64,000 nucleotides of DNA from Pelecanus crispus. Lineage: Eukaryota > Chordata > Aves > Pelecaniformes > Pelecanidae. The stretch covers positions 167,546,491 to 167,610,490 of the forward strand of contig NC_134643.1 in NCBI RefSeq assembly GCF_030463565.1. Direction: 5' to 3'. This document shows positions 38,541-64,000 of this stretch, piece by piece; within the stretch, counting starts at the first letter, position 1; the number at the start of each line of letters is the position of its first letter. The notes under the pieces are model-generated. The model saw nothing but the letters and a program-made list of their open reading frames with translations, was not told the DNA's origin and made no database searches. The position numbers and the translations under genes are program-made.

Positions 38541-41015
38541 TGTTGTGTGTTTTTTTTTTTTAATTAAACAAAGCATTTAAAATTTAATCATTTTCATTAG
38601 ACTTTTTTTTTAAATATAAACAAAGTTTTGGCAAATAATATTTATACAGAAAAATAGTTTTAGATCTTCCCAAATTTTGAAATAGTCTATAAAATTACTT
38701 TATAAATAAATAAAATGCAGAATCTGTTGTACACGTATTTGCACATCTCTGTAATTGCCTCCTTACTGTTAGCATAGGTTTGTACTTGTACAATTTTCAG
38801 GAATATTACAAAGTCATAAAGTCGGAAAGTGGATCTCTTATTAAAAATACATTTTCTCTTTTTGTCTGTCAGTTTATCTGGATGAAAGACCTGATGTATC
38901 TGAAGCTTCGTCATCCATGGGCAAAAAATAGTAATATTGGATTAATTGTAAAAAACATAGAATAACAGTTATTTCTAAACATAAAAAGTTCACACAAAAC
39001 AATGTCTTGAAGAGTTATCTACATAAAATATTTAAACGACATGGATAATTTACCATTTAGTATTATACAATAAGCTACCCAAATGCCTAAATTAACTATT
39101 ATAAAAAAATAAAAACAACTTTGACAGATATAGGCAAGTTGCAGTGTCAACTACCTAGTTATAATGACTGAGAAAGTCTACAAATATTAGTGTTTTAATA
39201 GTATATAATGGTGATACCTTAACTGCTAAAGTAACAAGTTAAGATACATTATTTTTCCACAAATTAAAACTAACGCAACGTTACAAGCACTATGTTAATT
39301 TTACAATCGAATCGTGATTATTTTTTTCTTTCGGATGATCAAATCTCCAGCTTTATATATAAATAGATAGTAATTAGACATCGGACAAACAAGATTTAGC
39401 CCAGAAAATAATTTCCTAGACAAATAATTATATGGTTAGTGCCTTCAGTCGTTCAGAACAGGCAGTGCTGCCAAAGTTTAAAATAGTTTACAATCAATCT
39501 GAAGAGGTTAAGTTAAAATACTGCAATCACTAATAATGTCCACATAGAAAACTTATGCTGCAAACAATTATACATAATATCCACTTATAACAGCTGTCTT
39601 GTTTTTTTAAACAATAATTTAAAAACTATGTCATTTATGTGATACATGTGCAACATATAAAATGTGAAATATGAAATATTTGGTACAATAGTGCTTGAAA
39701 CAAATCTCAAATCAAACAAATGAAATTTTAATTATACATATAGAATTACCTTGTAAATCAACAAAGTATTTAAAAAAGTAAACAACATTAAAATCTGCTT
39801 CATCCATATATATGTATGTATATATAATATGTATATAATCGTATTAAAGATATCTTCATACTTTTGTGACATAAAATATGTTTTTAAAGAAAAACAATTA
39901 AAAGAACTATTTTTTTCTCCACTCTAATCTGGTTACAATCGTACAATCCAATTAAAAAAAAATGCAAATACAGTAACGATTTATTAAACTGAATCTCATT
40001 CTACATTCTTAGTGTTCAGTTAATAGTCTAGATTAAAGTCACCTATGAAGTTTCAGTGACTCAACTGAATTTTAATTAAATTAGAGTATCATACAAATCT
40101 TTTCATCTACAGCCTTCTTTTTCGCCTTTTCTTTCGTTTGGTCTTTTTTTGTTTGATTTTACACTTCTAGAAGTTACTTCTTAACAGCTTGGGTCTTTTT
40201 GGTAACCTGACTATGAGTTTGAAAGATTATTCGCTTCTGGTGAGATTTGACTGTTGGCATCAGGCTCACTTTCATCAAGTCTGATGTGACAAAATTTAGG
40301 CACTTCTGCAAAGTCTCTTTTAAAAACATTATAAATATACTTGTAAAATAATATTTTCAAGACTTTGTTCTTTTGGGGATTGAAAGGGGTATGAAGTTCA
40401 TACTGTGCAAAATCTTTTAATTTTCTTCTGCTATTCTGCTATGATTCAAATGCAACTTCTCCATACAAGTCAAACACCAACCATGTGCATCAAAAGAATT
40501 TGTGCTTTACTTTGGACTTCTGGCTAAAAATATTCAGATTGGCAGGGTGATGTGCAGGACACTGGGCTGCGTTTCACTTCCTCTGTCTTGGAATCAACTC
40601 GCTAGGGGAGCAAAACCAAGATTTTTTTTTTTTTTTAACCGAGAAGAAAAACCCCAATCATAGCTCGGGTGAAAATTAAACCTGCAACTGGGGTAAGTTT
40701 TTAGCCGATACAACTTAATTATTGCTGAGCTCAAAAGATTCATAAACACTGAATCTCACGAGACTAATTTGACTGGACCATTTCCTTTAGGTATAGTTAT
40801 GGAGAAAAGACAATATTTGCAAGAATTAAACTATGCTTAGAAAATCTTTAAAACTAAATGTTACCCTTTATGTCTTGAAACATCACAGCTGGTATCAGGT
40901 AGTTAACTATTTTAGGTTGGAGTATAGTAAGCATACCATATTTAATATTCATATATGACATAGCAGCACTAGCTTTTTCGAGTTTGTGATTTGTCCGTAA
41001 GAACAAATTCTTGAC

Positions 41016-41143
41016 TTAGCATGCAGTTTGTGGCAACTCTAGAGAGGAGGAGACGGGGTAGTATGTACAGTAGCCGTGCTTGGCCGTCCGCAGGGAGGCT
41101 TCGTGACACTCCGTTCCGCTCCTGCCGGCTATTTCAGGATTAT
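41016..41143 (-). CDS. MBNL2: MBNL2 terminal coding exon, read in two frames
   Basis: A strong acceptor (CTTTCCTTTCTCTTGACAG, AG at 41145-41144) precedes the exon. If the 36-nt exon is joined directly, ATT-G plus AT gives ...S-I-D and the frame continues DNPEIAGRSG...KHGYCTYYPV, ending SSSLELPQTAC, with TAA at 41016-41018. If the 95-nt exon is included, its final CAG is followed by ATA-ATC-CTG-AAA-TAG, giving Q-I-I-L-K and a stop at 41129-41131, only 15 nt into the exon. Both C-termini match the known MBNL2 isoform design. The last 18 residues of the long form are nearly identical to human, while the first part differs at many positions (human from memory). The exon is CpG-rich, unlike its AT-rich 3' UTR. 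Confidence 0.95.
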
Positions 41144-41248
41144 CTGTCAAGAGAAAGGAAAGCGTGATCGCGCTTTTAGGTGACACGGGGAGAGCAGTTC
41201 GCCCAGACGGCCAGCACCGGACTAACTAAGCTTGGGCGCAGCTCGTAC

Positions 41249-41537
41249 GGGACAGCATCCCAAACGGGACAGCATCCCAAACGGGACAGCATCCCGTATG
41301 GGACAGCATCCCGTACGGGACAGCATCCCAAACGGGACAGCATCCCAAACGGGACAGCATCCCGTATGGGACAGCATCCCGTACGGGACAGCATCCCAAA
41401 CGGGACAGCATCCCAAACGGGACAGCATCCCAAACGGGACAGCATCCCAAACGGGACAGCATCCCGTATGGGACAGCATCCCAAACGGGACAGCATCCCA
41501 AACGGGACAGCATCCCAAACGGGACAGCATCCTGTAT
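41249..41537 (-). repeat. 17-bp minisatellite, 17 copies, with a UGCU hairpin in each unit
   Basis: The core GGGACAGCATCC starts at 41249 and recurs every 17 bp without any indel up to 41521. Cores are separated by 4-base linkers AAAC, GTAT or GTAC. The core is an imperfect palindrome (GGGA-loop-TCCC). On the transcript strand of MBNL2 the unit is GGGAUGCUGUCCC, a 4-bp stem with a UGCUG loop. The array is intronic, about 105 nt upstream of the terminal exon acceptor. Because 17 is not a multiple of 3 and no unit creates a stop, it produces long spurious frames (about 250 codons) on both strands. Confidence 0.95.
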
Positions 41538-43484
41538 CCTCACGCTGCCTGGGAGGCGATTGCTTTTCACAAACCTGGCCGTCCTCCTCCCGCGCACACG
41601 TCCTCACGCGCGTGAGAACACGCGGAGGGGATATTTTACGTGCCAGAATACTGGAGACCGTGCGGAAGCCACGAAGGAAGGGCCTGGCCGCAGGCAGGGT
41701 GCACACCCTCAGCGCCCCGGCTGTCAGCGGAGGGGGAAGCAGCCCTGGCCTCCCGAGGAGGCTCACAAGTGCATGGGTGCCTGGCGCGATTCTCCAGCTC
41801 CCACCCTGCTCCCACAAAGTCAGGAGCGACCAGGGGAAACGGTGGAGGCAGGGCCCCTCGCCACTAACAAGCAAAAAAAAATGTACCGGGCTGGCTGCTT
41901 TCAACAAGCTATAGTGTCTTTTCAATGCACTTTTAGCAGCTGCTTATTTCCTAAAAAAATTATCTGCAGGTCAGCAAACTTCGGAGGCTTTTCACGCTTC
42001 CTTAGGTCAGGAGACCCAGGGGGATGATCGTAATGGTACCCCTGTGCGCCTAGCTAGTCACTAACCTTGCTGCTTTACCTCCACGATGTCTCAAACTGAG
42101 GGTGAGGCAACCATTTTACAGACGCAAACTCTCGCGCTTCCAATACTGCGAAGGTTAAATGCACGATGTGCCCAGCACCTGACTCAACCTGCTCACAGCA
42201 TTGGAAAACACTCCAGATTTCCATCACCTGCCTGAAACGGCTGCCAGTGAAAGCGATGTCAAGAGCCAGGGGTGTGATGTTTTATCATGCCATTGCTAGT
42301 CTGTGCTCCAGACTTAAGCACAAGTCAAGGAATCGGAGCGCATCACCTGCTCTTCCTGTTTCATTTGGCACTCGACATATTTTTAAGCTGTATTTGTAGG
42401 TGGCAAGACAGTCATGACAGCACTTTGACCTACTTGTGTATTACGAAGCTAGACCGCTGCTTAATGCAATATTTATTTTAAAAGGAAAAAAAAAAAAAAA
42501 AAAGGTGTTTTGAAAATAATTTCAGCAACATACTACCTCTGACATACAGATTGCTGAGAAGAAACACACTTGCCTCTGCATGGAAGGTGCTTGTTCTAGT
42601 CCCCTGCCCGGTCACATTTTAACACCCCTGCAGTTTGGCCTGCTCCGAAACCAGTGAGGATTGCTTTGTTCAAGGTACGGCATGGCGTGGCATGCCATCC
42701 AGACTCCTAACTACTACAGACAGCTGCCTAGAGACCTCAGTTCAACAAAAATATCGCCAATGAGACGAAGCGTTTGCAGGAGCGACGTAAATGCTGTCAC
42801 ACCTGAGAGCCGCCCTCCTCTCTCCCGGAGGAGGAGGGGAAGAGCCCGGTTCTGCAGAGAGGCAGGATATGCAAAACCCCTGAACCCCAATTCCTACAGC
42901 ACCTACAACTTGCCCCTTCTGCTTGAGCTTGCCATCCAACCCACACGGCAGGAGTGACGACTCCCATTGCTCCGGGAGGCAAGGGACCGTCTCCAACGCT
43001 ATGTGCTCTCTGTACACAGCTACCAGCTCCCTGACCCCACATAACTTGCTGGCATGCCAAAAAGTCATCTCTGATTACCATCAGCACTGAAAATCCGGTG
43101 ACACGCGAGGCCCCATTGTAATGACACTGTACAAACACCTGCTGCTCCAAAGGGCTTAACATCTAAATACATCATACATACAACAAGGACATATATTTTT
43201 AATGAACTTCCACCCATTGTGAGTTTGTTAGCTTATCGCCTATCTTCTGTTTCCTATTGAAATAACAAAGAAATACCTTTGCTGGAATAATAAAGCCCTG
43301 CCTGTGATAGCCCTGGTCCATCTACAGCACAGTGATTCGACAGTCCGTACAAAGAATGTAGCCGTGCTGAAAATAAGAAGTGACCAAGATTATCAGCACT
43401 GATATTTTTAGCAGGTTACAACCCAACATGTCTATGTAATTAATAAAGCAGCTTTAGCTATACTGGGTTAGCCATAATCACGCA

Positions 43485-43538
43485 AGTGTATTTAAAGGAT
43501 CCTAAGGACTGAGTGTACTTAAAGGATCCTAAGGTCTG
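43485..43538 (+). repeat. 27-bp tandem duplication
   Basis: Two adjacent 27-bp copies (43485-43511 and 43512-43538), each containing AAAGGATCCTAAGG and differing at two positions. Confidence 0.9.
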
Positions 43539-46500
43539 ATTTAATGGGACACAACCTGAAATCTACTCAGTGTAAAAAACCAGAATTTCAGACACTGCAG
43601 TTGCCTACATCGCCTGCCAACTTTTGAGGGGATAAAATTGCATTTTCCTATAGCTTTTTTCTCCCCGCACAGGAAGACAGATCACTGCCCCTTATGCCGA
43701 GACATCCTAAAAGGTGAAACTGCCCCACAACACTGGTGCTCCTAATTCCTCCAAGAATGCATGACAGAGGCGGCAGAAGGCCTAATCTCAGGCTGTGTCT
43801 CGGGAAAAGGGTAGGACGGTCCCTGGTGCTTCGATCAACCCAAGCGCAACCCCCGCTGCCGCGTGCCAGGCGGGACGGAGGGCCCCGGGCAGCGTGGAGG
43901 AGCAGGGACCCCATCTCTGCTCCACTCTGGCGAGTGGCAGAGCCCAGGTAAGGACGTCCACCGCCCCGTCCCTATTCCTGCCGCTTCTCCCCTCCTCTGG
44001 AAACTCAGGAAACAGCAAAGACAATGTAAACACTTTCCTTTTGTGTGCGAGCACGTCCTGTTTACGCGGCTGTGGGTGCAGGAGGAGCAGCTGGAGCTCG
44101 CCCCGCTGCCGGCTTCTCCCGCTGCCAGTGGCTACGGAGCTGGCTTGCTCCCACATCGTCCTCACCGTGCTGCCACTCGTGCAGGGGATGGAACTAGGGC
44201 ATGTTGCACCCTGGCTATTTCTAGTACACGTAGGAGTCCTCCTAGGAAAAAAAAAAAAACCCTCCAGTCTCTCCTTCAGAACAAGCTTCTCCACTGTGGA
44301 GATGCAGAACTGAGGAGCTACTTTTTTTTTTTTTTTTAAACCTTAGCCACAAAGTGTAAAACGTATCCCGTAGTCTTTAATTATATGTTCACACCCTACT
44401 TCTCAAAAAGATATCACAACTCTGCCATAGCTACATACACATGTATCAGCTTCTGCAACTGTTTTTTTCACTGTGTCTGACAGAGAAACATAAAATGCTA
44501 AACTGCTTTACATGGAAAACACACTGTGAACCTCTTCTGTTTAATCTACAAACGAAGTAATAAACTGTGATGGAAGACGGAGGCTATCTAACTCTGCATC
44601 GCTACTAATTGCTCCATCATCTACGTGCTGAAAAAGGAGAAGCTGTACAGAACATACCGACCAAGGAACATCCCTGCAAACACCTATTACAGAGTCTGCC
44701 CTCCCTCGTTACTTGTAAATAGGTGCAACAACCTTCATGTTCGCTACTGAATTACATCTTAAATGTACATATGTATGACTCGTCACATTCGCAGTGATAC
44801 TATTATATCATTATACTTCACAGTAACTTGAGATAATGTATTGACACTTTTACCAGGGTATATATAAGCATAAAAAACCTGAAAAATAAGACTACACAAT
44901 GCATGTGCATTGTCCCATGTACAAAGGTCTACAGGTCAAGCATGGGAAAGCATTTTCTCATGCTCTGTATGAATAAGATCCACAGGTATGGATACAGATG
45001 TGCCAGAAAACATACCTTCTGCTCCTGCAGGAAGAGATCTAGCAAGAATGCTATTTCTAGCAGAAGCAGAATGGCCTGGTGCTTATAGTCTGGGGTAGTA
45101 ATGCACAGAAGATTTAATAACAGCAAAGGGCATTTTTTGGAGGCAATCACAGACATAGGGTACCCTCTCCATTGCCTTCTTGCTTGGTACCCGTTTGAAG
45201 TGCCAGAAAGCTGGCTACCCTTAGACTGAAATCATTAAAATTGTGCCAATGTTAGTTACTAGATCCCACTGAAACTGCAAATACATACAGTGAACCTAAA
45301 TTCCTGCAAACTACTTTCTAACTGCCAAGAAGCGCTTGCCCTTCCAAATTTTCCAGCTCTTTAGAGGCGGCATTTTCAGCTCCCAAATGCCAAGACTTGA
45401 CTTTCTCTCTTTTCTATCAGAGCATGGCTCTTTTAGACCTTTACCTTCAGGACCTCTGAATGACCACAGCGGTCATTAAGCCCCCTGTGCAACACAGCAC
45501 GTCCCTAAATTCAGCCAGGGTTGCTCCTAAGGGTGATGCAGTTCTGCAGTGTCGTCCATGGGAATGACAACCACGAGAGGTGTTACTGCCAACGATTTCA
45601 GCTTCTCACCAACCCACCGTATGCAGCAGACCAATCGACATCAGCTTGGGACTTCCTCAGACCCAGCAAATGCGGCTGCGACCGGTTATTGTCTCGACTT
45701 AAAAGGTAAAATTGAAAATCTCTTTTAAATTAAGGTGGAAATTCCACCCTCGTGAACTCTCTTCTGACACTCAGGTTACTACGTGCACTGCCTTACTTGA
45801 TACCGTTCCCGGAATTAGCCAAATTACCTAGAATCATGACTGGGTACTACAAATTTCAAGAATACCATTTGGCTTTAGATTTTCTGTTTTGAAGCTACAA
45901 CTCATGAAGCTTCTTTATTCCCCATGTCTTAAATTCTGTTTCCAGCTGTGGATTTATTATACAATGATGAGTACAGAAAATTTACCATTCTGCATGAATT
46001 CAGTGTACAGGAACTCTTGTTCAACTAAAGACCTGTCACAGTGGATCAGCTGGAAAACATGACTTCGTATCTACCTCCAAGATGCTTCTCTTTCAGAAGT
46101 TCTGAAATTGTTTCTCCAAATTACACTTTGCTCTACCAGTGTTAATACATTTCAAGGGGGGATTAAGATCGTATTTGACCTCCACGTTGTGAAGCACTTA
46201 TCCCTCCAAAAATGAACTCATACATAGTTAACATTTTAGACTGCTCAGCTTTTCATTTAAGCACAATGTAGTAATAGGAGTTTCTTGTAGACAAGATTCA
46301 TTTCAGATTATTTCAGACATGTATGCCTCAGCTGGTCACCCTGTTTTACATCTTCCTAGCCTACCTCAGGCAACTTATTTTAGCATAAGACAGATTATCA
46401 ACTCATGATGCTTTTTTCCCCTCCACCAAATATAAGAGTCTGTGGCAAACAGTTCACACTGAGGTGTTTAACTTCCACACACCTGCGTCAGGGCAGATGA

Positions 46501-46812
46501 ATCCTACCACAGTGACATTTTCTATTTTCGTGGTTTTCACACAAGTAGCAGACTGGTCAGATATATCTAGGGTATACATTAAAAATGACAGATATTTTCA
46601 GACAGCCGACTCATATCAGGCTGTCTCATAACTTCTCCCGCTTTCTAAAAATAAAACTAACACCAAGTATTTCTTCCCTTTGACAAGAAACCCAAGCTAT
46701 TTATATTTCTCCATGCCTTTGGGAAATGCCTCCATCTCTTTATTTTTCATTTTCTTGTAGAATGCTCTTTTGTGGCATGTGCCTTGTCCTTGTTCTTCAA
46801 AATAAATCCGTC

Positions 46813-46833
46813 TTTTTTTTTTTTTTTTTTTTT
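46813..46833 (+). repeat. Homopolymer T run (21 T)
   Basis: Twenty-one T on plus, so A in the MBNL2 pre-mRNA. No retroposed body is evident beside it. Confidence 0.85.
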
Positions 46834-47050
46834 AATCAGAAGTGGAAAAGGATGAGTAAATATTCAGACATTTGCTGAGAGTAATCACTATCATATCAAT
46901 TATGCTTTGTCTTACTTAATTTTTTACATAGTCTTACAGATGGACTTCACATCCTATTTCTCCATGACTTCAGCAGCAGCACCTCCACGGAACTGAGCTT
47001 TCCAACCCGCCGCCCCAGGACTCTCACCGACACTCCCCCAAGGGATGGGA

Positions 47051-47391
47051 TTTCATAGAATCGTCTAGGTTGGAAAAGACCTTTAAGATCATCCAGTCCA
47101 ACCATTAACCTACACTACCAAGCCCACCTAAACCAATCAAGGGTAGACTAGACTAAACCATATCCCGAAGTGCCACATCTACCTGTTTTTTGAACACTTC
47201 CAGGGATGGGGACTCCACCACCTCTCTGGGCAGCCTCTTCCAATGCTTGACCACCCTTTCCGTAAAGAAATTTTTCCTAATTTCCAGCCTAAACCTCCCC
47301 TGGCGCAGCTTGAGCCCATTTCCTCTCGTCCTATCGCTAGCTACTTGGGAGAAGAGACCAACACCCACCTCACTACAACCTCCTTTCAGAA
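47051..47391 (-). mobile_element. CR1 LINE, 5'-truncated 3' end
   Basis: The element reads from a TCATAGAATCGTCTAGG start through CCAGTCCAACCATTAACCTA and CCACCTCTCTGGGCAGCC to a break at about 47391. The minus-strand frame preserves the CR1 ORF2 C-terminal region clearly: [10 protein letters not shown], then [20 protein letters not shown], then [17 protein letters not shown]. Only one octamer remains at the 3' end. It belongs to a different CR1 subfamily from the 33.4-kb copy (extra sequence after CCAACC). It is in the same orientation as MBNL2. Confidence 0.93.
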
Positions 47392-50300
47392 GAATTAATT
47401 TGCCCCCGTCCTCCACTGGCTGGAGCTGGCTCCAACTCTCGCTTGCACTAGAAGCAGCCTGCCTGCTCCTAACACTCAGGGTGGAAAGGTGCTGGGGTAC
47501 GCACACCTCATCTCTCCCACCTTAGCTGTTGTCCCGCTCCCTTTCCTGGCCCCGGCACGAGCTGTAATTCCCGCTGGAAGTCCCTTCCTGACCTACTGTC
47601 TGCACTACATTGCAGGTTTTGTCACTGCCACAAGAGCTTCTCTTCCTTGTCTCTACCACATACATTTGCGCATTTGCGCACCCATCATCTAACCTCAGGC
47701 CTGCGTCACTCATCTGTCCCTGTCCACTTCAAAATTCACAGTCACCAGTTTGCACCCCTGTAAACCTAATGTCAAACAAGCATCTTTCTGCGGGTTCATC
47801 TGCAAATACTGAAAAGAAAAAAAAAACCCAGTAAACGTATCCCCAAACAAAACCTAAAGGAACTACTAATAGGGTCGGAGGGACCTGCTGAAAGCAATTT
47901 GTTACCCTTGCTATCACTGTCAATCACTTCATCACTTTTCACAAACACATTGAGCTCCACCTTGCGTCGCTGGCTTCTTTCCTTTGCTACCCTTCCTCCC
48001 TCGATGGCCAGAAACCTCATCCTCATTTCCAGCACATTATGATTTAATGTATACGTGCTTCATTTTTCTTACCAACTGTGGATCTCTCCTCAATTCAGGG
48101 TTGAAGGAGGATTTTTTTCTTATTGCTTCTCCATTAATCCAATGCATCCCCAATATATTTGTCTACTTTGCTCATCGATAAGGTGACCTCTGATTTGTAT
48201 ACAAAGGGTGACATGTCTAGGCCACAGATGATCTCCTTGGTTGCCTGCCCACGCAGTAACTAACAGAGGGGGCATCAGGTGTTTGTTTCCTGAGGGGAGA
48301 AGGTCCTATTTGTTTGGCTTTCCCACAGCCCATCCCCTGACATGGTAATTCCAGTGCCCTGCTCCACCCTCTCTTTTCTTCCCTAAATCTGAGCATGCCC
48401 AGTTCTGTCTGTCCCATATGTTGATAATATGCCTCTGGAAATGGCTGAGGGTCAGATGTCCATGCTGGGCACATCTGCTAGCACATTTTCATCCCATCAG
48501 ACACAAGTTGTTGGCCATCAGGGTGTCATAAAGCTGACAGAGATGTTGTCTGAATCCAGTTCTTCATGATGATCTAAAGAGAAGATCAAGGCAAGTGTGG
48601 GATCCGAAAGGGCTCAAGGATTAAACAGCATCATTCTTCTCATTTAATATTCATGAGGTCCTGAAAGAGAGTCCAAAGCCACTTGTGCTGCCAACTCCTT
48701 AGTGTGCTTACAAGCTTCAGTAGGTATTTACTCAAGTAATAATGTATAATATTTAAGTTCAACTTAATAGGTATTTACTCACTCTGAAGAAACAGGACTA
48801 GTTGTTTGAGAAATTAAAGCAATCTGGCTTTATTTATTCTTCCTTAAAGTAATAAATAATGCAGTACTAAAAATTGATCATAACATACTGTAGTATATTC
48901 TACCAAAATCTATTTTTAACTAACCACACAGGCAGCAGATGGACTACATAGAAATGAGAAAACCACTGCTATAATATTTTAGGAGCACCGTACAGTGGCT
49001 GTTTTGAATAGCCACTCAATTTTACCTTTCAGCAGGTCTGAGCTACTGCAGTCATCTGTGTTTTTCACTTCCTACTTTCAGGTCATTTTCCTTCTCTTCT
49101 TGAATTTTAGAAACTGCCAGAATAGGCTTATGCAGAGGAACTGAGAGCACAGAGGACTGAGAGGCCAAGCACAAGTTGTGCATTACCTGTGAAGGTGCCC
49201 CTATTCCTCTTGTAGGGGTGCTACTTCTCCAAACCTGCATTTTCTTAGGTGTCCTCACCTAGCCTTTTTTTTTTCTTCTTTTAACAAACCCTGCTTTATA
49301 TTTTCCTCTTGCACATCATATATGCCCAAATCATGCAAAATGAGGCTGCCATTACACATATGGCATCCCTTTTAGGCAAACGCTGCCAACTGCACGCAGA
49401 GCACGGCTAGCGCTTCTGCGAGTTCCCCAGCTCTGAAACCCCTCCTCTCCCAAAACCTGGCACTTCAGTTCAGACTCCCTTCCAAGCAAGAGACGGTCCA
49501 CTGCAACATCCAGAACTTAAATCAAACACAGAAAGGTACCAAATTTATGTTCATCAAGGTATACTCATCAGACACCACATACAACGCTTGTGTCAGTTTT
49601 ATAAAACCCACTGTATTGGAACTTCTCTGGGGAAATCCTGGCTTTTGACTGCTTACCGCTTCCTTAATTTTCTTCTTATCTGAATACTCTCACATAAACA
49701 GACATACATACTATTGTGTGTCACTGCAGATAATACTGCGCCAAAAATGAAGTCAGTCAAAGTTAACAAATCTCTGCCTCAAGCTGAAAGTCACGACAGG
49801 TACAACACACAAACAAATAAATAAATAGGTGTTTCCACTACGGTTACGTGGGCAGCCTCCTGCACACTCAAGGCCAAAGACTGGCATTTCTGGTGGCCAA
49901 TAAATCATACACCGAGATAAAAATATGATATTTGTTTAATTCAAGGGAAAATAGTTGGAGCAGCTAGAGATGTCCAGATGCAATTATTTCAAAGAACAGA
50001 ATCCCAAACAAGTACATTTGGAGCTCTGCACTGCACTGTGTTGTTAAAATTTTATGATGGAAAAAAACAGACTCACACGAGCTGTATGTACATGTTAAGC
50101 ACAATGAAACAAACTCATTTTTTCCCAAATGCCTACAAAATGCGTTGACCTCAGAAAAATTTTCCTATGTTTAAATAATAAATATACGCCCCAAAAGACT
50201 TCAACTCAACTTGTTCAAGTATCATTTGTTGAATAATTGAAAGCAAGAACATAAAAGGACGTTACCATATCAAACATAAACGCATTTTTTTAATTGCAAT

Positions 50301-51995
50301 GATATGAAAGCTAAAACAGTCTATAACAGGAAAGGGAAATATGTCTTGATTTTTGTTACATAAAAGAGGTGTTTGCCTTTGTTACTGCTCATGTTATGTG
50401 ACACTGCCATCTAGCAGGCTATCAGAGGAACTCAGGTTTCAGTCCTCTACAGGGGTGGGGATGTGTGAGGGGGGAATTTCTTAAAAAAAAAAAAAAAACA
50501 CCAGAGATTTTCCATTTCTTCCCACTGGCTTCTTGTATATGAGCATGTGATCTAAAACTGTATGCAAGCCTGCCAGAAGTCTTCATCATCTACACAGAAA
50601 CAACAGTCTATCTTAAGACACCAAAAAATGTTATTAAAAGTAAACCAAAGACTTGGTTAAAGTTCGCATGAGACTTAAAACAGACTTCCTTTAAAGTTTC
50701 CAGGGCAATCTTTTGGTTTTGCTTCCTTGCTGCCTTACAGTTAAAGAAAACAAAGTTTTGCCACATATTTTGTAATGTCAGTTGTTTCAAGGCAATTCAA
50801 AGGGTCTTTTCTTGACACTGCTTGAGATTTGTTGTGGGCTTTAAGATTGGAAACTCTTACTTCTTGAGCCTGCAAACTGTTAATTCTGAAAGTTACAGCT
50901 ACTTACATGTAACTCAGTGTCTTCAGACAACAAAACTTGATTGAATTGAGGCTAGTGATTCTTGGGTGTCTAGCATGAAAGAGGCAGCAAGCGGTTTACA
51001 TTTGCCTTTCCTACCGTGACAAGCTATCGCTATACCTTCTCTAGAGGAATGACTCTTCATGATCAAGGACCGTTTAGGTTCATTTTTCCAGCCTGGTGCA
51101 GATACAAGGTGAGATGTCCAGTCCTGCACCCCAGATGCCAAGGCTTGCTAGTACCTCTACATGGATGGGCTTGCTAGATGCCCGACGCTGTTCTGCCCAG
51201 GGCTCGCTCCCTGCAAGCATCCCCTCTGATAATGTGTCTGAGAAAGGAGCTTATTCTTCTATCTCCTTTGTTGGAATTTTTCATTCAAATTGCCTTTTCT
51301 GTTGTTAGAACAGAATTTTCTATAGGAGTATTTAATGTGGGACTCTATGGAATTTCTAGACCAAAACTTTCAGTCAAAAAAAAGACAAGAATTGTTTAGA
51401 TACTTATTATTCACAGCAGAAGTGCTTTCCTACCTGTTCCCCCACTCCCTCAGAAACTGCAATTAAAGCTCTTCAAATCACTAACAAGAATTTTGCACAG
51501 GCCCTTATTTGTAATGTTGTTGTATACTGGCATTAAAGATGTAAATAACATTTGTTTCCCCTTCCCACCTTCCTTCTCAAAAGCTTGCTTTCAAGCAACA
51601 AAAAAGACTGTTTCCTACTACCTTCCAGATTTTCCAAATCATTTTCTCAGTATGTTGCTACTCTTCTCCCCATTTACAAGTGCAGCAGGTTTCCACAAGG
51701 AGGAAAGGCATCGTGAGACAGAAAAAGCCTTGTCGCTCCTCAGCAGCGCCGACGACAGCCCTTTGCCCTGCCGGAAGGCTTCCCAGGGTTAGGCTAGAGA
51801 GGAAAGCCCTTTTTGGGGACACCACGGAATATTTGCAAGAGGGAGCAACCGGCGCTTCTGCTTTACACAGAGGAAGAAAATAGCTTGAGTAGGTGCCACG
51901 TGACATTTCGGTCTAAGGGGAATTGGCCTCCTCTGGGAGTGGCAGCTGCCTTTGTGGGCACTTTGGCAAGGAGAGGTGCTCTGTTGCTGCACGTC

Positions 51996-52564
51996 TGTCC
52001 TGGTTTAGCCCCAGCCAGCAGCAAAGCACCACGCAGCTGCTCGCTCACTCCCCCTGCCCCAGTGGGATGGGGGAGAGAATCGGAGGAGTAAGAGTGAGAA
52101 ACACTCCTGGGTTGAGATAAGAACAGTTTAATAATTGAAATAAAGTAAAATAGTAATGCTAATAGTAACAGTATAATAATGATAATAATAATAATGATAC
52201 ACGAAGCAAGTGATGCACAATGCAATTGCTCACCACCCACCAACCAATACCCAGACAGTTCCCAAGCAGCGATCACTGCTCCCCGGCCAACCCCCCCCAG
52301 TTTATATCCTGAGCATGACGTCATATGGTATGGAATAGCCCTTTGGTCAGTTTGGATCAACTATTCTGGCTGTGCCCCCTCCCAGTTTCTTGTGCACCTG
52401 GCAAAGCATGGGCAGCTGAAAAGTCCTTGACTAGCATAAGCAGTACTCAGCAACAACTAAAACATCAGCGTGTTATCAACATTCTTCTCCTACTAAATCC
52501 AAAACACAGCACTATGCCTGCTACTAGGAAGAAAATTAACTCTATCCCAGCCAAAACCAGGACA
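51996..52564 (-). mobile_element. Solo LTR of an ERVL-like endogenous retrovirus, better-preserved copy
   Basis: This is a 569-bp solo LTR in the MBNL2 intron with perfect 5-bp target duplications ACGTC (51991-51995 and 52565-52569) and inverted ends TGTCCTGGTTT / AAACCAGGACA (one base differs). Sense is minus, as for the host gene. It keeps a perfect CRE, TGACGTCA (52316-52323), and a TATAAA (52306-52301 on minus), which form an intact-looking promoter. A minus-strand ATTAAA (plus 52127-52132) is a possible poly(A) signal. A TAATAA-rich stretch lies at about 52.16-52.20 kb. It is homologous along its length to the LTR at 4322-4867. No internal viral genes are present. Confidence 0.93.
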
Positions 52565-55500
52565 ACGTCCTGGCCCCCCTCCCTCCCAAGGGAGCTGCCA
52601 CGCACGGTGTCTCAGATCCCCACTAAACATTTGGCATGTTCGTATTTTACTTTTTAAATTCTGGGGCAAATACTTTAATTGTTCTTTTGTCTGTGGCACT
52701 CTAATGTAACATAACTTTTTATTTTCACTTCATTGTATTTTTACAGATTTTGACAAAACTGAAGGCTACTGAATGATTTCATAATTAATATCTGCATAAT
52801 TGCCACCTAATTTAGTGCAAACGCTGATGCATAATTTAAAACAGCTGTGCTTGATAATCACAAGCCTTAGCACAAGCCAGCCTGTTGATCTTATATTTCT
52901 TTTCAGACATGGCCTATGAGTATTTCATTTTTCTATTGGCTCTGCCTTTTAATTTTTCCTTCTTGCTTAAAGGTCATATAGTAGAATAACGTTGTCACTA
53001 AATAAGATCTTTAAGCAGCATCCTCTGTAATGCTATTTTTATACTGTCAGTCTTTTGCCCATTTTCATTGCTACAGAAAGTAAAGCCATGTACTGTTCTG
53101 CACTGAAGTGGTGTGAGCAAGACTATTTTCTTTAAAATAATTTGGAATTTGGTAATTGCCCTGTAATAAGCAACAACTGAGGAAGTAACCACTGAGCCTA
53201 AGGACACAGATTAAGACACAGAAATGCTGGTGTCTATCTCCCGTCGCAGTCAATGGGGTGATACAGCCTAGTCAGTGCGCAAGCAGAGCCTGGAGATGAC
53301 TTCATGTGATCACCCACTGCAGGCACAGGTCATTTGCTCACCAGGCTTTTAGTACCATTTGGGCTAAGGCCTCCTGCCTGTTGTCCAGCTGCCAGTTCAC
53401 AAGCGTGCAGATTTGTCTGTAGGTCCTCAATTGCATCTGCCAAACTTGTCAAAATGTTTTGGATAACCTAGACATCCAAGGTTATCTTAGGACAATCTTA
53501 AATGTCAGTACACACATGTTTAGGCAACTGAACCAAGCCCTGCGTGACTTTTGAAGAGTGAGCCAGACTATTCTCCAGACTTCATCTGACTGTGCTGATA
53601 ACCTTCACAGTCTACAGTGGGCACTTAAATGTCTAGCTTGCATGTAGACACCCATACTCAGACATCAACACTTAGGTGTCTTAATTTCGGGCTGAGTCCT
53701 AACCTTTTAATCCTTGTAGCACTCATCAATGCATGTATGTAAATAAGCAATAGTATGACTTTCTACTCAAGAAATTTAAAGCCCCCCAAAACAGGTGTTG
53801 GCATTATTCAAAATTTAAATTCAGTCCCAGAATTCAGAATAACCCCACTCTCAAATACTGCTAGGATAGATCATCCTCTGTGAAATCTTATGGCTACCTG
53901 TGAGCGAAGCTGAGGAGGTAACAGTTTCCTGGCTTACTCGAGTTCTGCTAGTCCACTAGCTACAGGAGTAGTAATGAAAAGCTTTGTTAAAGACCTCTGA
54001 AGTATATATTTACAAACAATTACTGTATTAATATTTTAAATAAGATGTTTTACATACCTCTGCCCACATGCATGCACTAGAGGGAGCTAGGACCAAATCC
54101 TCCGTATACATGCTCTAACGCTGCTTCTCACCATCATTTCACACTTTTTGGAACTTTGCTCGTTCCATCCTCCAAGAAAACGTCATCAGCATCCCCAGAC
54201 GACTGAACATAAGTTCATTAAAGATCTAACCCTGAAGTGAGGTTAGGCAGCTGCAGCTTCCAGCCCCACTCTGGTGGGAACGGCTGGAGCAGTTGTGAAG
54301 GGGGGAAGAGGAAAAGGGGGAGGGACCTCTCACCTCTGATCAGTCATGCTCCCAGACTGCTCATGTACCTTTGGAAGTCCACCTGCCTTTCACTGGAAAG
54401 CCCAAGCTGAAGTCCCCCCTCCATCCCCTCTCATCACAGCCTGGCAACCAGAGTAAGCGGGGACACCCCTTCACAAGATGTCTACACTCAGTCAATGGCA
54501 ACACCACCAGCTTGTGTATCAACTGAGTCATTTTTTAATCAGGATTTGTAAAACAGGGTTTGCTAAAGCACTTTTAACCCATCCTGTTTTCATTGCGCTG
54601 ACTCAAAGCGATTCTCCTCCCCTCTGAAGTACGCTGCAAAAAAATTATTTTGGTTTTAAAACCTAACTTCCAGAAGTCAGGAAAAGCAAGAGACTTCCAA
54701 TTTTCCACATGTTCTTAACTGGTGCCACCCTGCATGGATGTACTATGGTATACCATTCAACCCTACACAATCTCCTCACGTGCCTTGTGCCATATATTGA
54801 ATGCACAATGCATAGAGTTGCTAGCCAAGCATGACTGACAGTGCGTGTGTCAATGCAGGCACATTTTGAGCTACTACTCATGTTATTTTCAGAAAGAAAG
54901 GGCATACAGAAGACATGAGACATAGTTCATCTTTTTTCAAAATACAAGCTGACAGCACATACTAAATAATTTACTGGACCCAACAGAGCTGTTAGGTTTT
55001 TTTTAGCCATCAGCTGAGACTCCATAACTTTGGGGATGTTGACTTTTCCTTCCACTGGTGCTTCAAGGACACCGGGATCACCACACTCAACCCAAGGAAG
55101 TCCAGCAATCTTTCCCCAGGCCAGAATACTAAACCAATGATATTCAGCTAAATGATTAAGCCCTGTTACAACTTTCTTTTTGTGCCTGGCATTGTGAAGA
55201 GAAGCTGAAATGGGACGGGCTGAAGGCTGCAGGTTGATTAAAAAAGTGCGGTAGAGACACTGGCAAGAGGAATCCGTACCCCACAGATATGTAAAGCAGT
55301 GTGGCACAGACCAGGAAAGGAAGTTTTATCTAGATGGGAATAAAAAAGCCCTTTTCTGAAATACACAGGAGAGTTTAAATCCATACAAGAGGACACAAAG
55401 GATGTTACGACCTTGAACAAATTCTTAACCCAAGTTGATTACCTGTTCCTTCTACGTTTCTTGGGCTAAAGAAATACTGGGAGTTAGGACCACAGAGTTA

Positions 55501-55978
55501 CTATGGGGCCTTTCCCAGTGTTGTAGCTTTGTCTCCAACTCTTAGGAGGTTGTAAATAAACAACAAACTTGGAGATTTGCCTCTTATAAAGAAAAAGTAA
55601 CTGCTACTACTTTCCCTACTTTCAAATACACAGTTTTTTTACAGTAGCTTTTAAAGATTTACAATGACTAAAACAAAGACAGGAGTGAGTTGAAAAAGAC
55701 AGCGATGGCACACGCTACAGAAGCCAACGAGAAAAGCTGCTGGGGTGGGACTCATCTCCTCCATGTGCAGTGGTGCAGAGCTTTGGTTACGCACCTACGC
55801 TCCTTCCACAGGCAAGAGAAAGAGGCAGGACCCTCCAGGGCAATTTACCTTGCCCTAACACGGGCTTCTAGAAAAGCAGATGAACTAGATGCCAAACTTC
55901 TAAATGGCTGAAGCTAAAAAAGTGGAAACCCATCCCCGTGTTAAACTATCCTTTAATTTCAGCATGGAGTTATATGTA

Positions 55979-55996
55979 CACACACACACACACACA
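55979..55996 (+). repeat. (CA)9 microsatellite
   Basis: Nine CA units followed by an AT-rich stretch. It is likely length-variable. Confidence 0.9.
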
Positions 55997-56800
55997 AATA
56001 TATGCAAGTAAATAAATACAGACAGATACTTTTTACAACTCCTGTTAAATTTAAAATGCTCTAATCCTCCAATGCAAACAAAATCTGCACTGGGAAAGGA
56101 GGGGCTCTGCCTGCTGTCCTGCTAGATGAGAAAGTGCATTAAGGCACACCTATGTCTCCCCAGTGGCACTAGGTACTCGTGTGAAAGTATTCCCATTAAT
56201 GAAAAAAAAAAAAGACTGCTTACTGGTCCTTTTGTAGGTGTACATGTATTTATTCAACTTCAGCCACAGTCGGCCCCTCTGGCGCTCCGGAGTGCAGGTG
56301 GTGGAGCTGCCCTGGCTGCACTCCCGTGCTGGAGAGGGGCCCCAGCTGACCCCCTCCCCAAACCGCCCTGTTTTCTCATAGTCCCTTGGCATCTTCAAGT
56401 CCCTCTGTCACCAATTTGGGATCACAAAACTACACTGGATACCACCAAACAATTTTCTGCTGCAGATGCTGTTCTGGGAAGGACAGTGAAATGCACCATT
56501 TGCCTGCTGCACTTTCTTCCTTGTTCCAAGCATTTTTTCATTAAAACAAGCTAGCTCTCAGAAAAGAACGCACAAAACGACAAACCTCTTTTGATGAAAA
56601 TGCTAGAAGCACAAACACCACAATGTTGGCAAAAGAGCCTTTAAAAAAAAAAACCAGAGAAAACGGACTGGTTTTTGTTTCTTTAAGAAAGTAGGGTGTA
56701 TTTCAGAGGTAGTATATTTTTCCTAAATTATTATAAATAAACTCTTGCAACAACTTCTGTTTTTCCATGGGATACTTAGATAGTTTTGGGACTGACAGTT

Positions 56801-56824
56801 AAAAAAAAAAAAAAAAAAAAAAAA
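56801..56824 (+). repeat. Homopolymer A run (24 A)
   Basis: Twenty-four A on plus, so U in the MBNL2 pre-mRNA, about 1.2 kb downstream of the 95-nt exon. Confidence 0.85.
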
Positions 56825-57886
56825 TCTGCTGGTATAACATTACTAAACAAAGCATTTTGACTGATTTCTTTGTAATTCCTTGGCAGGTGGAGGGGAATGA
56901 ATCAACGGGTGAGCGTTTCTACTAGGTCTGCAACAGCTTGTCGGTCTGGCCAGGAGCAACACAAGGAAAGGTGACGGGGCCATAGCCCTTTGCTTTCGCT
57001 CGGTGAGCAAATCTGCTTGCTTCCTCCTCAGTTTGACCTCTCAAAACCTGAGGGAAAACAGCTCTCAGGGGGAAGTGCCTGAGCGTGGTCCTGAAGCAAC
57101 AGAAAAGCCAGAGTGACCCAGCTGCTGCGCAAGCCCCTCTCCGGGCAGATGCCAGGCGTGTCAGGGTGGGAATCTCTACAGCCCCAACGGAGGAGTCAAA
57201 GCTACACACTCAGAGCTGCAACAGATACCTCTTCCCTGGGAATCAGGTCCCAGGAGGAGGGGGAAACCCTACCAACATGAAAACTGCCATTAACGTAACA
57301 AACCGCAGAAGAAAAAGAGAAAGGATCATCTTTCCTGGCCTGCCTCTGCCAATAACCCTACCGGTTCTTCGTAACAACGTCCTTCCTCGGGGAAATATAA
57401 TTCCCAGGTTAAAAAGACACTTGCAAACATAAAGCAGGCATGGTCATAAATATCTCAAGTGCTGTTTTGATCACTAGCATTTACAGAAAACATACAATTT
57501 TGTTTCTATTTTTTTTTTTTTTGTTCCAGCTACCTTGTCCCGCTTGTGATTTTAGGCAGCTTCCTTGCTTACAAATTAGTCACTTCCACACACGGCATGG
57601 AGAAGGCTACATTAACACACCTGAACCGTTTGAAACCTGTGATGATCTTCCTTTTGAACTTAGGAGTTAATAATAGGCTTTTGTAAGTAGTCCAGTACTA
57701 CGGTGATTCTAACTCCAGCTGGGTTAATTACACAGTAATTAGGTACAAACATCGCAACACAAAACACAGCTACATCATTATTTGCAACAAATGTTAACTC
57801 TAAATAAGTGCAACCTGTCCCACAAACACTTGCTATAAACGACTTAAAAATAAAAGTAAAATTTGATGGGGTAAACACAGGAAAAA

Positions 57887-57915
57887 AAAAAAAATTCTCC
57901 GGGAGAATTTTTTTT
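57887..57915 (-). repeat. Perfect hairpin downstream of the 95-nt exon
   Basis: Bases 57887-57899 (A8 then TTCTC) pair with 57903-57915 (GAGAA then T8) around a CGG loop, giving a 13-bp uninterrupted stem. It lies 83-111 nt downstream of the weak GTTTGC donor of the regulated 95-nt exon in MBNL2 pre-mRNA. A role in splicing is inferred. Confidence 0.85.
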
Positions 57916-57998
57916 GTTAAAAAAAAAATTAAAATAAAAATCTCAGCACTCATTTAGAGTTCGGGATCTTGTGAAAGAAAGCTTTAAAAGGAGCAAAC

Positions 57999-58093
57999 CT
58001 GATTTGCTGTGGCTGTTGCGGCGAAGGGAACACTTGTTGCAGGAGTTGTTGCTGCAGAGACAGTGGCGGCCGTAGCGTTGTGCATCATGGGTA
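57999..58093 (-). CDS. MBNL2: MBNL2 alternative 95-nt exon
   Basis: The exon encodes (V)[19 protein letters not shown] then [12 protein letters not shown], matching the Ala/Thr-rich C-terminal segment of MBNL1 and MBNL2. It is 95 nt long, the known size of this alternative exon, and is flanked by AG (58095-58094) and GT (58998-type donor at 57998-57997). It starts in phase 1 (G/TA completes Val) and ends in phase 0 at CAG. Because 95 is not a multiple of 3, its inclusion switches the frame of the terminal exon. Both splice sites look weak (GAAAG acceptor without a long pyrimidine tract, and a GTTTGC donor), fitting regulated use. Upstream intron sequence contains UGCU motifs. Confidence 0.95.
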
Positions 58094-59502
58094 CTTTCAG
58101 GAGGGGAACCATGGAAGCAATGAACAGGAGGGTGCAGCATTATGGTAAGAGAAGTGGTATTTTTGGCATGGTGAATATCAAGAGCGGCAAGCCATCGTCA
58201 TGGGTTAAACCGGCAGATGGCATGCAATCACAGTGCAAAGCGAGAAAGCGTGGCGGAGAAATAAAAAAAAGGGAAAATAGCTTATTACAAGTACAATTAA
58301 AGGAAGGTTGTCAACACGATCGGCGATTCCCAGAAAAAAGGACAAGGACCATTGAAAATGCGGGTGTTATCTCTAAGAACAGGATTACTTGTGCAAATGA
58401 GGCCTCTACCAAAATAGCCTGTTACCTGAGAATTGTTACATGGGCAATTTGTTTTCCCCCAGTATCAATATAAAGCACTCCAAAATAAAATTCTGCTAAA
58501 AAAAATACAGTGGGAAGGAAACTGATAAATGTTTATCTTAATTTTTAAACACAATTAAAAAATGAATTATTTTCATGTATCTTCTTTTTGAAGTAAGCCA
58601 GATACTCGCTGTCTTCCTTTACAATTCAATTTATGCATTTTTTTTCTACTAGCACTGCATAACTGCTAGACTTTATCAGAGTTAAATTACCGTCTGCTTT
58701 GAGGCAAAAATCAGGAGAAGGATGATAATAATTTTCCTGATTTAAATACTACTTTGTTTGATCTAAAAAAGCAAGGTCGATTTTGTGAAAGCTGCTGCTT
58801 TTGCTCATTTTAAGAATGAATTTTAATCAGCATCTTCATGGGAGAATTATCAACTTGATGTTTTAAAGGCTTGATATTTTAACTGCTTATCTGAGTAGTC
58901 CCACAAAAAAAAAAAAATCACTGGGATAGGGCTATAGAATAGAAGAAAGATTACTTTTCTGTCTCAGGGGCTGTTGCACTGGACTTCCATTTTTCCATGC
59001 CCAAAATGTTAAGTCCAAGCTGCAAATATATTTAAAGGAGGGGCGAGATTCAGATCCCAGGTTTCAACAGAACCTCTGTGGATCAAAGTAGGCATTTCTG
59101 GGAAACGCTGATAAAACTTTCTAACACACAGCAAAAAGGAGAAATAGGCACACCACTATGAAACTTTAAAACACTGATGAAATTTGCTGGCTTTTTCCAG
59201 TATTTTATGATTTTATAGTACTAGACAGTATAAATTATAAAGAGAAATAAAACTTTGAAAACTGAAAAGCAGACTGGAATTCATGGTATTATGCTTTTGC
59301 AGTGTAGTTGTTATAGCAGGTGATATTACATCTGAACTGCGGCTTTCATCTGCAAATCTAAACACTCTGCAAAGTCAACCAGAAGGACAAGCGAACCTTT
59401 AATTCTAGTCATTGTCTAAATCTCGCCTACCATTTTTGAAACAAGTTGAATATACATCATATACAATACAAAAAGAGATCAATAAAGAAATTTGGAACCT
59501 AC
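58094..59502 (-). other. MBNL2: MBNL2 intron between the 36-nt and 95-nt exons
   Basis: About 1.4 kb of AT-rich intron with canonical GT-AG ends. No mobile element was recognised. Open frames here (for example 58009-58473 on plus, which begins at GTG) are antisense shadows. Confidence 0.85.
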
Positions 59503-59538
59503 CAATACTGGTAGCGGGTGTCATGCACAAAACTGACC
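59503..59538 (-). CDS. MBNL2: MBNL2 36-nt exon
   Basis: The exon encodes (G)SVLCMTPATSI plus the first base of the next codon, identical to the same segment of mammalian MBNL2. It is exactly 36 nt, the family size, with acceptor CACGCAG (AG at 59540-59539) and donor GTAGGT (59502-59497). It enters in phase 1 and leaves in phase 1, so it can be skipped without a frameshift. A TGCATGACAC segment in the exon is repeated just upstream of the acceptor. Confidence 0.95.
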
Positions 59539-62500: not shown

Positions 62501-62874
62501 CACTTCCCGTGGCATCTCTGAAGCGTCATGCTTTTCCCAGCATTTTTGTTAGCGGAGCTTTGCCCTCTTGTCTCCTAGGAGGGCGCTGGCAGATAAAAGT
62601 CAAAATACAGCCAATTTAAGGTAGGAAAAAGGGGGGAAAACTCTGGTCAATGATGAACGAAGCTATGAATGTGAAAAGCAGCCTAACATCATGTTGAAAT
62701 TTCTCCTTCAATTCTCGTACTTTGCAGGAGGAATTAAAATAACCTGTAAATATCTGTGCAGACTTTACCTCAAGTAGGGCAGGGAGCGTAATAAAACCTT
62801 CTGTTAAGTGCAACTGCCTGACACGGAGGCTTACCTAAGGAACACAGAATTGGTTCAATGTGGGTACAACATAC
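59539..62874 (-). other. MBNL2: MBNL2 intron between the 154-nt and 36-nt exons
   Basis: About 3.3 kb of intron with canonical ends and no recognised mobile element. It includes an A-rich tract (about 60270-60302) and a short 21-bp duplication at about 59.87 kb (GGTTAAATATYACA). Confidence 0.85.
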
Positions 62875-63028
62875 CTGTTGGGATAAACGCTGCATGTTGC
62901 TGCAACTGAGCATTGGCAAGAGCCTGTTGATAGTGCAAGACACTGGGATTGAAAACGGCACTGGCACCATTGCTTTTTTCAAGTGCTTGTCTCTTTGGTA
63001 AAGGGTGAAGAACACCAGGAGGAAAGGC
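62875..63028 (-). CDS. MBNL2: MBNL2 154-nt exon
   Basis: The exon encodes [20 protein letters not shown], then [20 protein letters not shown], then [11 protein letters not shown] plus one base. This is the conserved region between the second zinc-finger pair and the C-terminus of MBNL2, and its KRQALEK region contains part of the nuclear localisation determinants. It is exactly 154 nt, starts in phase 0 after a TTTACAG acceptor and ends CAACAG/GTATGT in phase 1. The few differences from human (from memory) are Val for Ala after PPG, Ala for Thr in NGTS, and AN for TS in ALTSA. Confidence 0.97.
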
Positions 63029-63671: not shown

Positions 63672-63725
63672 CAGGTCTACAGTTGCTTCGAGAGGTCGCT
63701 TCATTGCTTTGGCAGTCGACTGAGT
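63672..63725 (-). CDS. MBNL2: MBNL2 alternative 54-nt exon (nuclear localisation exon)
   Basis: The exon encodes TQSTAKAMKRPLEATVDL in phase 0 on both sides, so it can be included or skipped without changing frame (...TVM-AFPPG when skipped). It is exactly 54 nt. The KRPLEA motif supplies the nuclear-localisation half-site for which this exon is known in MBNL1 and MBNL2. The acceptor (TTATTAAAAG, AG at 63727-63726) lacks a good pyrimidine tract and the donor is GTACTT, so both are weak, as expected of a switch exon. A YGCY cluster lies just upstream. MBNL proteins regulate this exon in their own transcripts (established for MBNL1). The zinc-finger exons are beyond the window. Confidence 0.96.
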
Positions 63726-64000
63726 CTTTTAATAACAGGCAGCGAGCACATGATGGCAGTGGGCCAATGGGATTCAAGCGAATTAACATACAGGTAAACA
63801 GCAAGCAGAGGTGCATCATGGGAACGGCATTGCATTTGTGGATAGGTGAGAAGGAAAAAAATATTCTGAATGCAATATACAACATACAAAACACTAGGCA
63901 TGCACAACAACAAAAATGTCTTCTAAAGAAATGAATATTACATTTCGAATTAGTACCGAAGCAAAAATGCATCTACTATACCTTAGTTAAAAGCATATAA
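63726..64000 (-). other. MBNL2: MBNL2 intron upstream of the 54-nt exon (partial)
   Basis: Intronic sequence running off the window edge. Transcript-strand YGCY motifs are dense near the exon: UGCC, CGCU and UGCU overlap at 63738-63748, UGCC is at 63755-63758, and two UGCU are at 63800-63807. Confidence 0.8.

Follow-up and report, generated by a model that had tools for sequence, protein, structure and literature searches.

A tandem array of UGCU-containing units lies in the last intron of MBNL2, and it raises the question whether it serves this gene as an MBNL response element or is a repeat that grew there by copying. MBNL proteins prefer YGCY/UGCU motifs and regulate MBNL exons, according to passages of two published sources (PMC13044900, PMC4176163) that agree with the earlier note on this DNA. 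Our in silico analysis of the window (the whole stretch of 64,000 nucleotides) points to copying: we consider it likely that the array is a lineage-specific minisatellite, grown from a two-unit duplication and near-neutral for MBNL2 splicing.

Tandem Repeats Finder places the array at 41247-41532 of the window, with a period of 17, 16.8 copies, 93% matches and 0% indels; its score of 481 is the top among the 14 rows for the window. Between 41249 and 41521 the starts of the 17 cores succeed one another at intervals of exactly 17 bp, in agreement with the seventeen units counted by the earlier note. The features of the array are as follows.

41249..41537, minus strand: minisatellite, 17 units x 17 bp, core on the transcript strand GGGATGCTGTCCC, spacers GTTT/ATAC/GTAC
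41249..41384 (41249-41316 and 41317-41384), no strand assigned: two identical 68-bp four-unit blocks, spacer order AATCAATC...
41245..41261, no strand assigned: left edge unit, GTAC plus core, in keeping with the initial unit of the orthologues (SSYGTAS, but SSHGTAS in P0125)
41521..41537, no strand assigned: right edge unit, ending CCTGTAT, in keeping with the final unit where orthologues have two (..GQHPV/E, then the right flank)

On the plus strand 16 of the 17 units share the core GGGACAGCATCCC, the final unit ending in CCT; on the transcript strand GGGACAGCATCCC reads GGGAUGCUGUCCC. Every unit carries a UGCU on the transcript (minus) strand, as had been claimed: the array holds 17 YGCY there, all of them UGCU, and 0 on the plus strand. 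The spacers on the plus strand are AAAC (11 times), GTAT (4 times) and GTAC (twice), and their order after the cores is AATCAATCAAAATAAAT (A for AAAC, T for GTAT, C for GTAC). Spacer order matches itself at lag 4 in 10 of 13 positions and makes units 1-4 and 5-8 the two identical 68-bp blocks, which, as read from the sequence, appear to be a sign of block copying. Units of minisatellites and VNTRs measure about 10-60 bp, a class into which 17 x 17 bp in tandem falls, and the array is probably a variable-number repeat. Elsewhere in the window the core is found more loosely: with up to 3 mismatches, GGGACAGCATCCC has 35 matches (17 of them in the array), whereas shuffled sequence gives 12.8 on average. 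No Rfam family matched the window at its gathering threshold.

The array and the terminal acceptor are surrounded by a GC-/CpG-rich stretch (41001-42000, with more peaks to about 44.2 kb), in which 250-bp GC rises up to 0.64 and CpG is near expectation in places. The 500-bp GC is 0.35-0.52 in the intron beyond 44.5 kb and 0.23-0.36 in 38.5-40.9 kb. A local recombination hotspot was considered as the cause of the expansion and dropped, since GC-/CpG-rich surroundings alone are no test of recombination.

To place the array in the gene, we used a human MBNL2 protein as query; its best match in a protein search is 98% identical over 100%, and the exons concerned are numbered e5-e8 here. The query matches the minus strand of the window at 63725-63660, 63028-62873, 59539-59504 and 58094-57996, and an alternative C-terminus matches at 41144-41019. 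MBNL2 is thus read on the minus strand, which bears out the gene and transcript strand assigned earlier, and its parts in the window are the following.

63672..63725, minus strand: MBNL2 54-nt exon (e5), from the protein match, ends approximate
62873..63028, minus strand: MBNL2 exon 6 (e6), from the protein match, ends approximate
59503..59538, minus strand: MBNL2 36-nt exon (e7), from the protein match and exon joins
57999..58093, minus strand: MBNL2 95-nt cassette exon (e8), adjoining the array-bearing intron
41144..57998, minus strand: last MBNL2 intron, 16.9 kb, containing the array
40960..41143, minus strand: start of the MBNL2 terminal exon, with two reading frames, acceptor after AG

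The array spans 106-394 nt upstream of the terminal-exon acceptor (the exon starts at 41143), which confirms the distance of about 105-395 nt given before; the e8 donor lies 16,462 nt (about 16.5 kb) upstream of the array. GT/AG splice sites flank e7 and e8 as well as the start of the terminal exon. Joining e7 (36 nt), e8 (95 nt) and the terminal exon gives a protein ending ...ATANQIILK, and joining e7 directly to the terminal exon gives one ending ...SIDNPEIAGRSGTECHEASLRTAKHGYCTYYPVSSSLELPQTAC; the terminal exon is accordingly read as IILK and a stop with the 95-nt exon, and as DNPEIAGRSG...ELPQTAC and a stop without it. Bird MBNL2 proteins have both C-termini (18 tails among the 120 proteins listed): the final 42 residues of the long tail in P0021 (Donacobius) and P0038 (Egretta) are the same as those of the window, and the IILK tail is found in P0048 and P0120. 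These tails mark the window as bird DNA, as the earlier note took it to be, probably from Neoaves.

Three further observations concern coding sequence in the window. The long tail (40960-41143) is 71% identical to the human tail, the e5-e8 pieces being 91-100% identical; it also differs between birds and a turtle or mammals (for example IAGRSGTECHEASLRTAKHGYC vs IISRDGMECQETSLRMAKHCYC in P0002). A minus-strand sequence at about 15.25-15.57 kb is RAP2A-like. An open reading frame at 47153-47521 on the minus strand holds a reverse-transcriptase-like fragment, presumably akin to the 3' ends of avian CR1 LINEs.

Both C-terminal isoforms read in the window splice to one acceptor, that of the terminal exon at 41143. 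The choice of terminal exon, proposed as the target of the array, is therefore without a visible alternative here; any effect of the array on this acceptor would be expected to retain the last intron or to cause premature polyadenylation. In human, the last exon (e10) is described as having a shorter variant, paired with e8 or e9 (part of PMC13044900).

We then asked how the motif content of the array compares with that of the rest of the gene. Ahead of the terminal acceptor, 16 YGCY fall within 300 nt, 12 of them belonging to the array; the exon is not known as a regulated one. These motifs stand where MBNL can act, and they count against the neutral reading. In mammals, regulation of e8 by MBNL is described, and both MBNL2 e5 and e8 are reported as MBNL-regulated (passages of PMC13044900). 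YGCY clusters are found upstream of both exons in the window, including one feature next to e8.

58094..58393, minus strand: YGCY cluster, 11 in 300 nt, directly upstream of e8 and a putative MBNL response element of the gene's own

Only 2 YGCY lie downstream near e8; upstream of e5 there are 11 in 274 nt (63727-64000), upstream of e6 there are 9 and upstream of e7 there are 3. These counts are not a clean control, as e6 is off the review's list of MBNL-controlled exons yet has 9, and e7 is on the list yet has 3. Judged by motif content, MBNL2 has candidate autoregulatory YGCY clusters without the array. The clusters upstream of e8 and e5 suggest that this bird may have retained MBNL autoregulation, with the reservation that 9 motifs precede e6 and only 3 precede e7.

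The mere presence of YGCY in an array is unremarkable, because the chance of the motif on one given strand is 0.44: in 200,000 composition-matched shuffles of a 17-mer, YGCY occurred on the given strand in 44% and on either strand in 57%. A YGCY within a 3-7-nt loop of a 4-bp stem, on either strand, occurred in only 0.4% of such shuffles. This figure is a further point against neutrality and is out of the ordinary, but the array is predicted to fold differently from that arrangement, and the gene was brought into the argument post hoc. The idea that YGCY are densest in the array was rejected for the window: the CpG-rich region of RAP2A reaches 27 per 300 nt on the minus strand, and 29351-29650 holds 19. 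We also rejected a REST/RE1 half-site array. Scored against a half-site consensus, the unit agrees at 8 of 10 positions; this reading is without signal because other positions in the window score as well (18 others on the plus strand and 12 on the minus strand score equal, the maximum being 9).

The origin of the array was approached through related loci. All six frames are open through the array, which allowed two chance open reading frames to be used as protein-search probes. The transcript-strand frame found no protein at E <= 10 among 7995 scored candidates. The plus-strand frame found 6 proteins among 7991 scored, and 5 of these (P0121-P0125) are the same locus in relatives that we infer to be birds. 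The sixth, P0126 (E 1.8e-3), is by eye an unrelated repeat protein and was kept outside the counts. Among P0122-P0125, all in one frame, the left flank is identical at 17-21 of 22-23 residues (for example MTRGEQFAQTAGTGLTKLGRSSY in P0123 and VTRGEQFAQTASTGLTKLGRSSY in the window) and the right flank at 89/124 (P0122), 92/124 (P0123), 48/117 (P0124) and 94/124 (P0125). P0121 changes frame after the array and, unaligned in the new frame, is 55% identical across 66% of the query.

Counted from flank to flank, the 96 codons of the window make 17 units, the 11 codons in each of P0122-P0125 make 2 units, and the 14 codons of P0121 make about 3 units. Copy number thus differs between genomes, 17 vs 2 or about 3 units, at five loci that are known from proteins alone and may come from assemblies of a kind in which tandem arrays can suffer, since short reads can break or shorten them. 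Long arrays elsewhere would be missed because only open-frame loci could be found. At the level of protein sequence, these loci establish few-copy states in relatives, not uniqueness of the long array. Collapse of one uniform array in the relatives is argued against by the second units, which differ among them (RRGQRPE, RTGQHPE, RRGQHPV, RTGQHPV).

Constraint on UGCU, which the earlier reading would predict, was not supported at these loci. On a codon reading, unit 2 would be consistent with UGCU in P0123, P0124 and P0125 (3 of 6 judgeable units); the motif would be changed in unit 2 of P0122 (perhaps to CGCU, which is still YGCY) and lost in units 2 and 3 of P0121. The first unit keeps the GC in 5 of 5 relatives, the flanking bases being third codon positions and unreadable. 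Conservation of the array and its UGCU as an MBNL response element is therefore not found in the five orthologous loci. The earlier note had held that absence of the array in close relatives with identical splicing, or free mutation of UGCU in other alleles, would refute its reading; this applies in part, the long array being absent at five loci and UGCU changed or lost in three of the six judgeable units.

The search for related DNA gave nothing further. The two-unit pattern had 0 matches in viral contigs and in genome contigs (which include no eukaryotic genomes), 40900-42100 had no match to phage records in near mode, and no relatives of P0123 were found in viral contigs. The plus-strand open reading frame at 41180-41914 (244 aa, antisense) runs through the array and has open counterparts in the five relatives, one of them frame-shifted after the array. 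These counterparts are probably a matter of ascertainment, because only open loci could be found; an antisense product would be the less probable reading.

According to the scenario that we favour, the 17-bp unit would first have been tandemly duplicated to the two copies found in related assemblies. Slippage or unequal exchange would then have raised two copies to 17, partly through copying of a 68-bp four-unit block, and the result would most likely be near-neutral for MBNL2 splicing. The ancestral two-unit state, this mutational route and the near-neutrality are what we infer from the comparison. Copying is supported by the exact period, the two identical 68-bp blocks and the identical cores (16 of 17). 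Each unit would carry UGCU because a single sequence was copied into all of them, and the uniformity of the motif is best read as reflecting copying rather than demonstrated selection. The odd right edge unit (41521..41537) is probably ancestral and not a recent mutation, because by its codons it would fit the last unit of the orthologues. Variation biased to the spacers was also considered as a sign of core constraint, and rejected: the units copy few variants, the odd last core fits the edge unit of the orthologues, and the spacer C/T falls in CpG. We met no such array in an MBNL intron among titles and abstract openings of the literature on minisatellites, introns and MBNL.

The predicted RNA fold bears on whether MBNL could nevertheless act through the array. 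Folded by itself, one unit gives a 5-bp hairpin (-4.5 kcal/mol, or -6.0 when the spacers are included), and the inter-unit register is equally good (-4.4 kcal/mol; -8.5 with flanks). The 293-nt array forms long inter-unit helices with an MFE of -179.9 kcal/mol, vs -142.1 for 98 CUG repeats (294 nt). Its z-score of -16.2 (200 dinucleotide shuffles) mostly reflects tandem repetition, because 37 of 1000 permuted-unit tandem arrays fold as well (best 3.7%; mean -126.7, sd 26.5). In the MFE structure 16 of the 17 UGCU pair their GC with that of another such motif, and the mini-hairpin is formed by 1 of 17 units; the last U is unpaired in 17/17 and the first U in 0/17. Robustness was checked over temperature and dangles, and the pairing states of the U residues are the same at 25, 37, 41 and 60 C.

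The best-surviving alternative, which we hold to be unlikely, sees in the array RNA a natural helix to which MBNL binds, slowing use of the terminal acceptor and, through last-intron retention or premature polyadenylation, giving negative feedback on MBNL2. The long hairpins fit it, with UGCU paired as GC steps beside an unpaired U, as in CUG repeats, and with a lower MFE than CUG repeats of nearly the same length. MBNL1 is described as having a strong preference for unpaired U and tolerating paired GC (parts of PMC4176163, a 2014 review); a comparison of six MBNL1 sites given there found no clear link between structure and affinity, mismatches in CUG helices are required by MBNL1, and a GC-rich TNNT3 stem-loop close to a 3' splice site is bound. 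Exons are repressed when MBNL binds near their 3' splice site (passages of PMC4176163 and PMC13044900). Against it stand the first U, never unpaired, and the five relatives with 2 or about 3 units, together with the permuted-unit arrays that fold equally well. MBNL1 affinity also falls when CUG helices are stabilised (part of PMC4227782).

Motif accessibility at a 100-nt pairing span also speaks against this helix. At this span, the probability that all four bases are unpaired is 0.008 in the array vs 0.228, 0.140 and 0.116 in the e8, e5 and e6 clusters, and the probability that the GC is unpaired is 0.094 vs 0.268, 0.204 and 0.184. The array is below the intron background on both measures (0.061 and 0.152, n = 205), and the 4 YGCY lying on the acceptor side of the array are at least as closed (0.006 and 0.013). 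At 50 nt the array is again lowest for all four bases (0.055 vs 0.225 for e8, 0.130 for e5 and 0.127 for e6); its value for the GC (0.317) is top among the array, e8, e5 and e6 sets, which favours the earlier reading. In view of the modelled fold, MBNL binding to the array RNA is plausible, and a CUG-like inter-unit helix would be likelier than mini-hairpins as the bound form. Still less probable is the fuller version in which a two-unit duplication grew into a CUG-like, non-CUG MBNL-binding hairpin that confers length-dependent feedback on last-intron removal and MBNL2 dose, lacking in relatives with 2-3 units.

That the array acts on splicing without MBNL, by a stable structure that shortens the effective distance to the acceptor or by GGG runs near the 3' splice site, is very unlikely. 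The very stable fold begins 106 nt from the acceptor, and GGG, the site of hnRNP H/F, stands on the transcript strand in 16 of 17 units; the z-score, however, is mostly tandem repetition, as the permuted-unit comparison showed, and the five relatives are without the long array.

We find highly improbable the proposal of the earlier note that 17 independent UGCU-loop mini-hairpins form an MBNL-dose-responsive switch of terminal-exon choice. The lone-unit hairpin agrees with it, and so does a pairing span of 35 nt, at which intra-unit hairpins reach 0.41 and GC accessibility 0.61; at 50 nt these values are 0.15 and 0.31, and at spans of at least 70 nt they are 0.00-0.06 and 0.05-0.11. The mean hairpin probability is thus 0.00-0.06 in 6 of the 8 span settings, and the claim of an own hairpin for each unit was not supported. 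In the growing transcript (17 lengths, MFE), pairing goes across units from two units on and never leaves more than one intra-unit hairpin, and the acceptor is common to both isoforms. Mini-hairpins might exist briefly, with a resting fold predicted to be otherwise. The least likely reading is a wrong copy number through assembly artefact: misassembly readily affects tandem arrays, and no difference separates the two 68-bp blocks, but there are three spacer types in an order that is irregular outside these blocks, and the array edges fit the edge units of the orthologues.

The minisatellite reading agrees with known intronic minisatellites and VNTRs in the exact tandem period, the near-identical units, the block copying and the few-copy state in relatives; unlike the usual VNTR, the unit holds UGCU, is partly palindromic and belongs to a gene whose product binds UGCU. 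Like MBNL response elements (MBNL1 e5; MBNL2 e5/e8), the array places many YGCY in the few hundred nt before an MBNL2 acceptor; unlike them, it precedes a common terminal exon and not a cassette, its motifs are mostly paired and it is short in five relatives. Like the CUG/CCUG repeats of myotonic dystrophy it has a predicted long hairpin with GC steps beside an unpaired U; unlike them, its unit is 17 nt, GC-rich and with one UGCU each, the Watson-Crick stretches are longer, the first U is paired in the MFE, there are 17 units only, and it is known here from sequence and predicted fold.

Should the array be a mere repeat expansion, it neatly illustrates how copying gives rise to motif-rich arrays next to suggestive genes, the few-copy state being still visible in relatives. 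If MBNL binds it, the loci would offer a natural length series (2, about 3 and 17 units), lying outside human disease, for the relation between repeat RNA near an acceptor and the dose of its binding protein.
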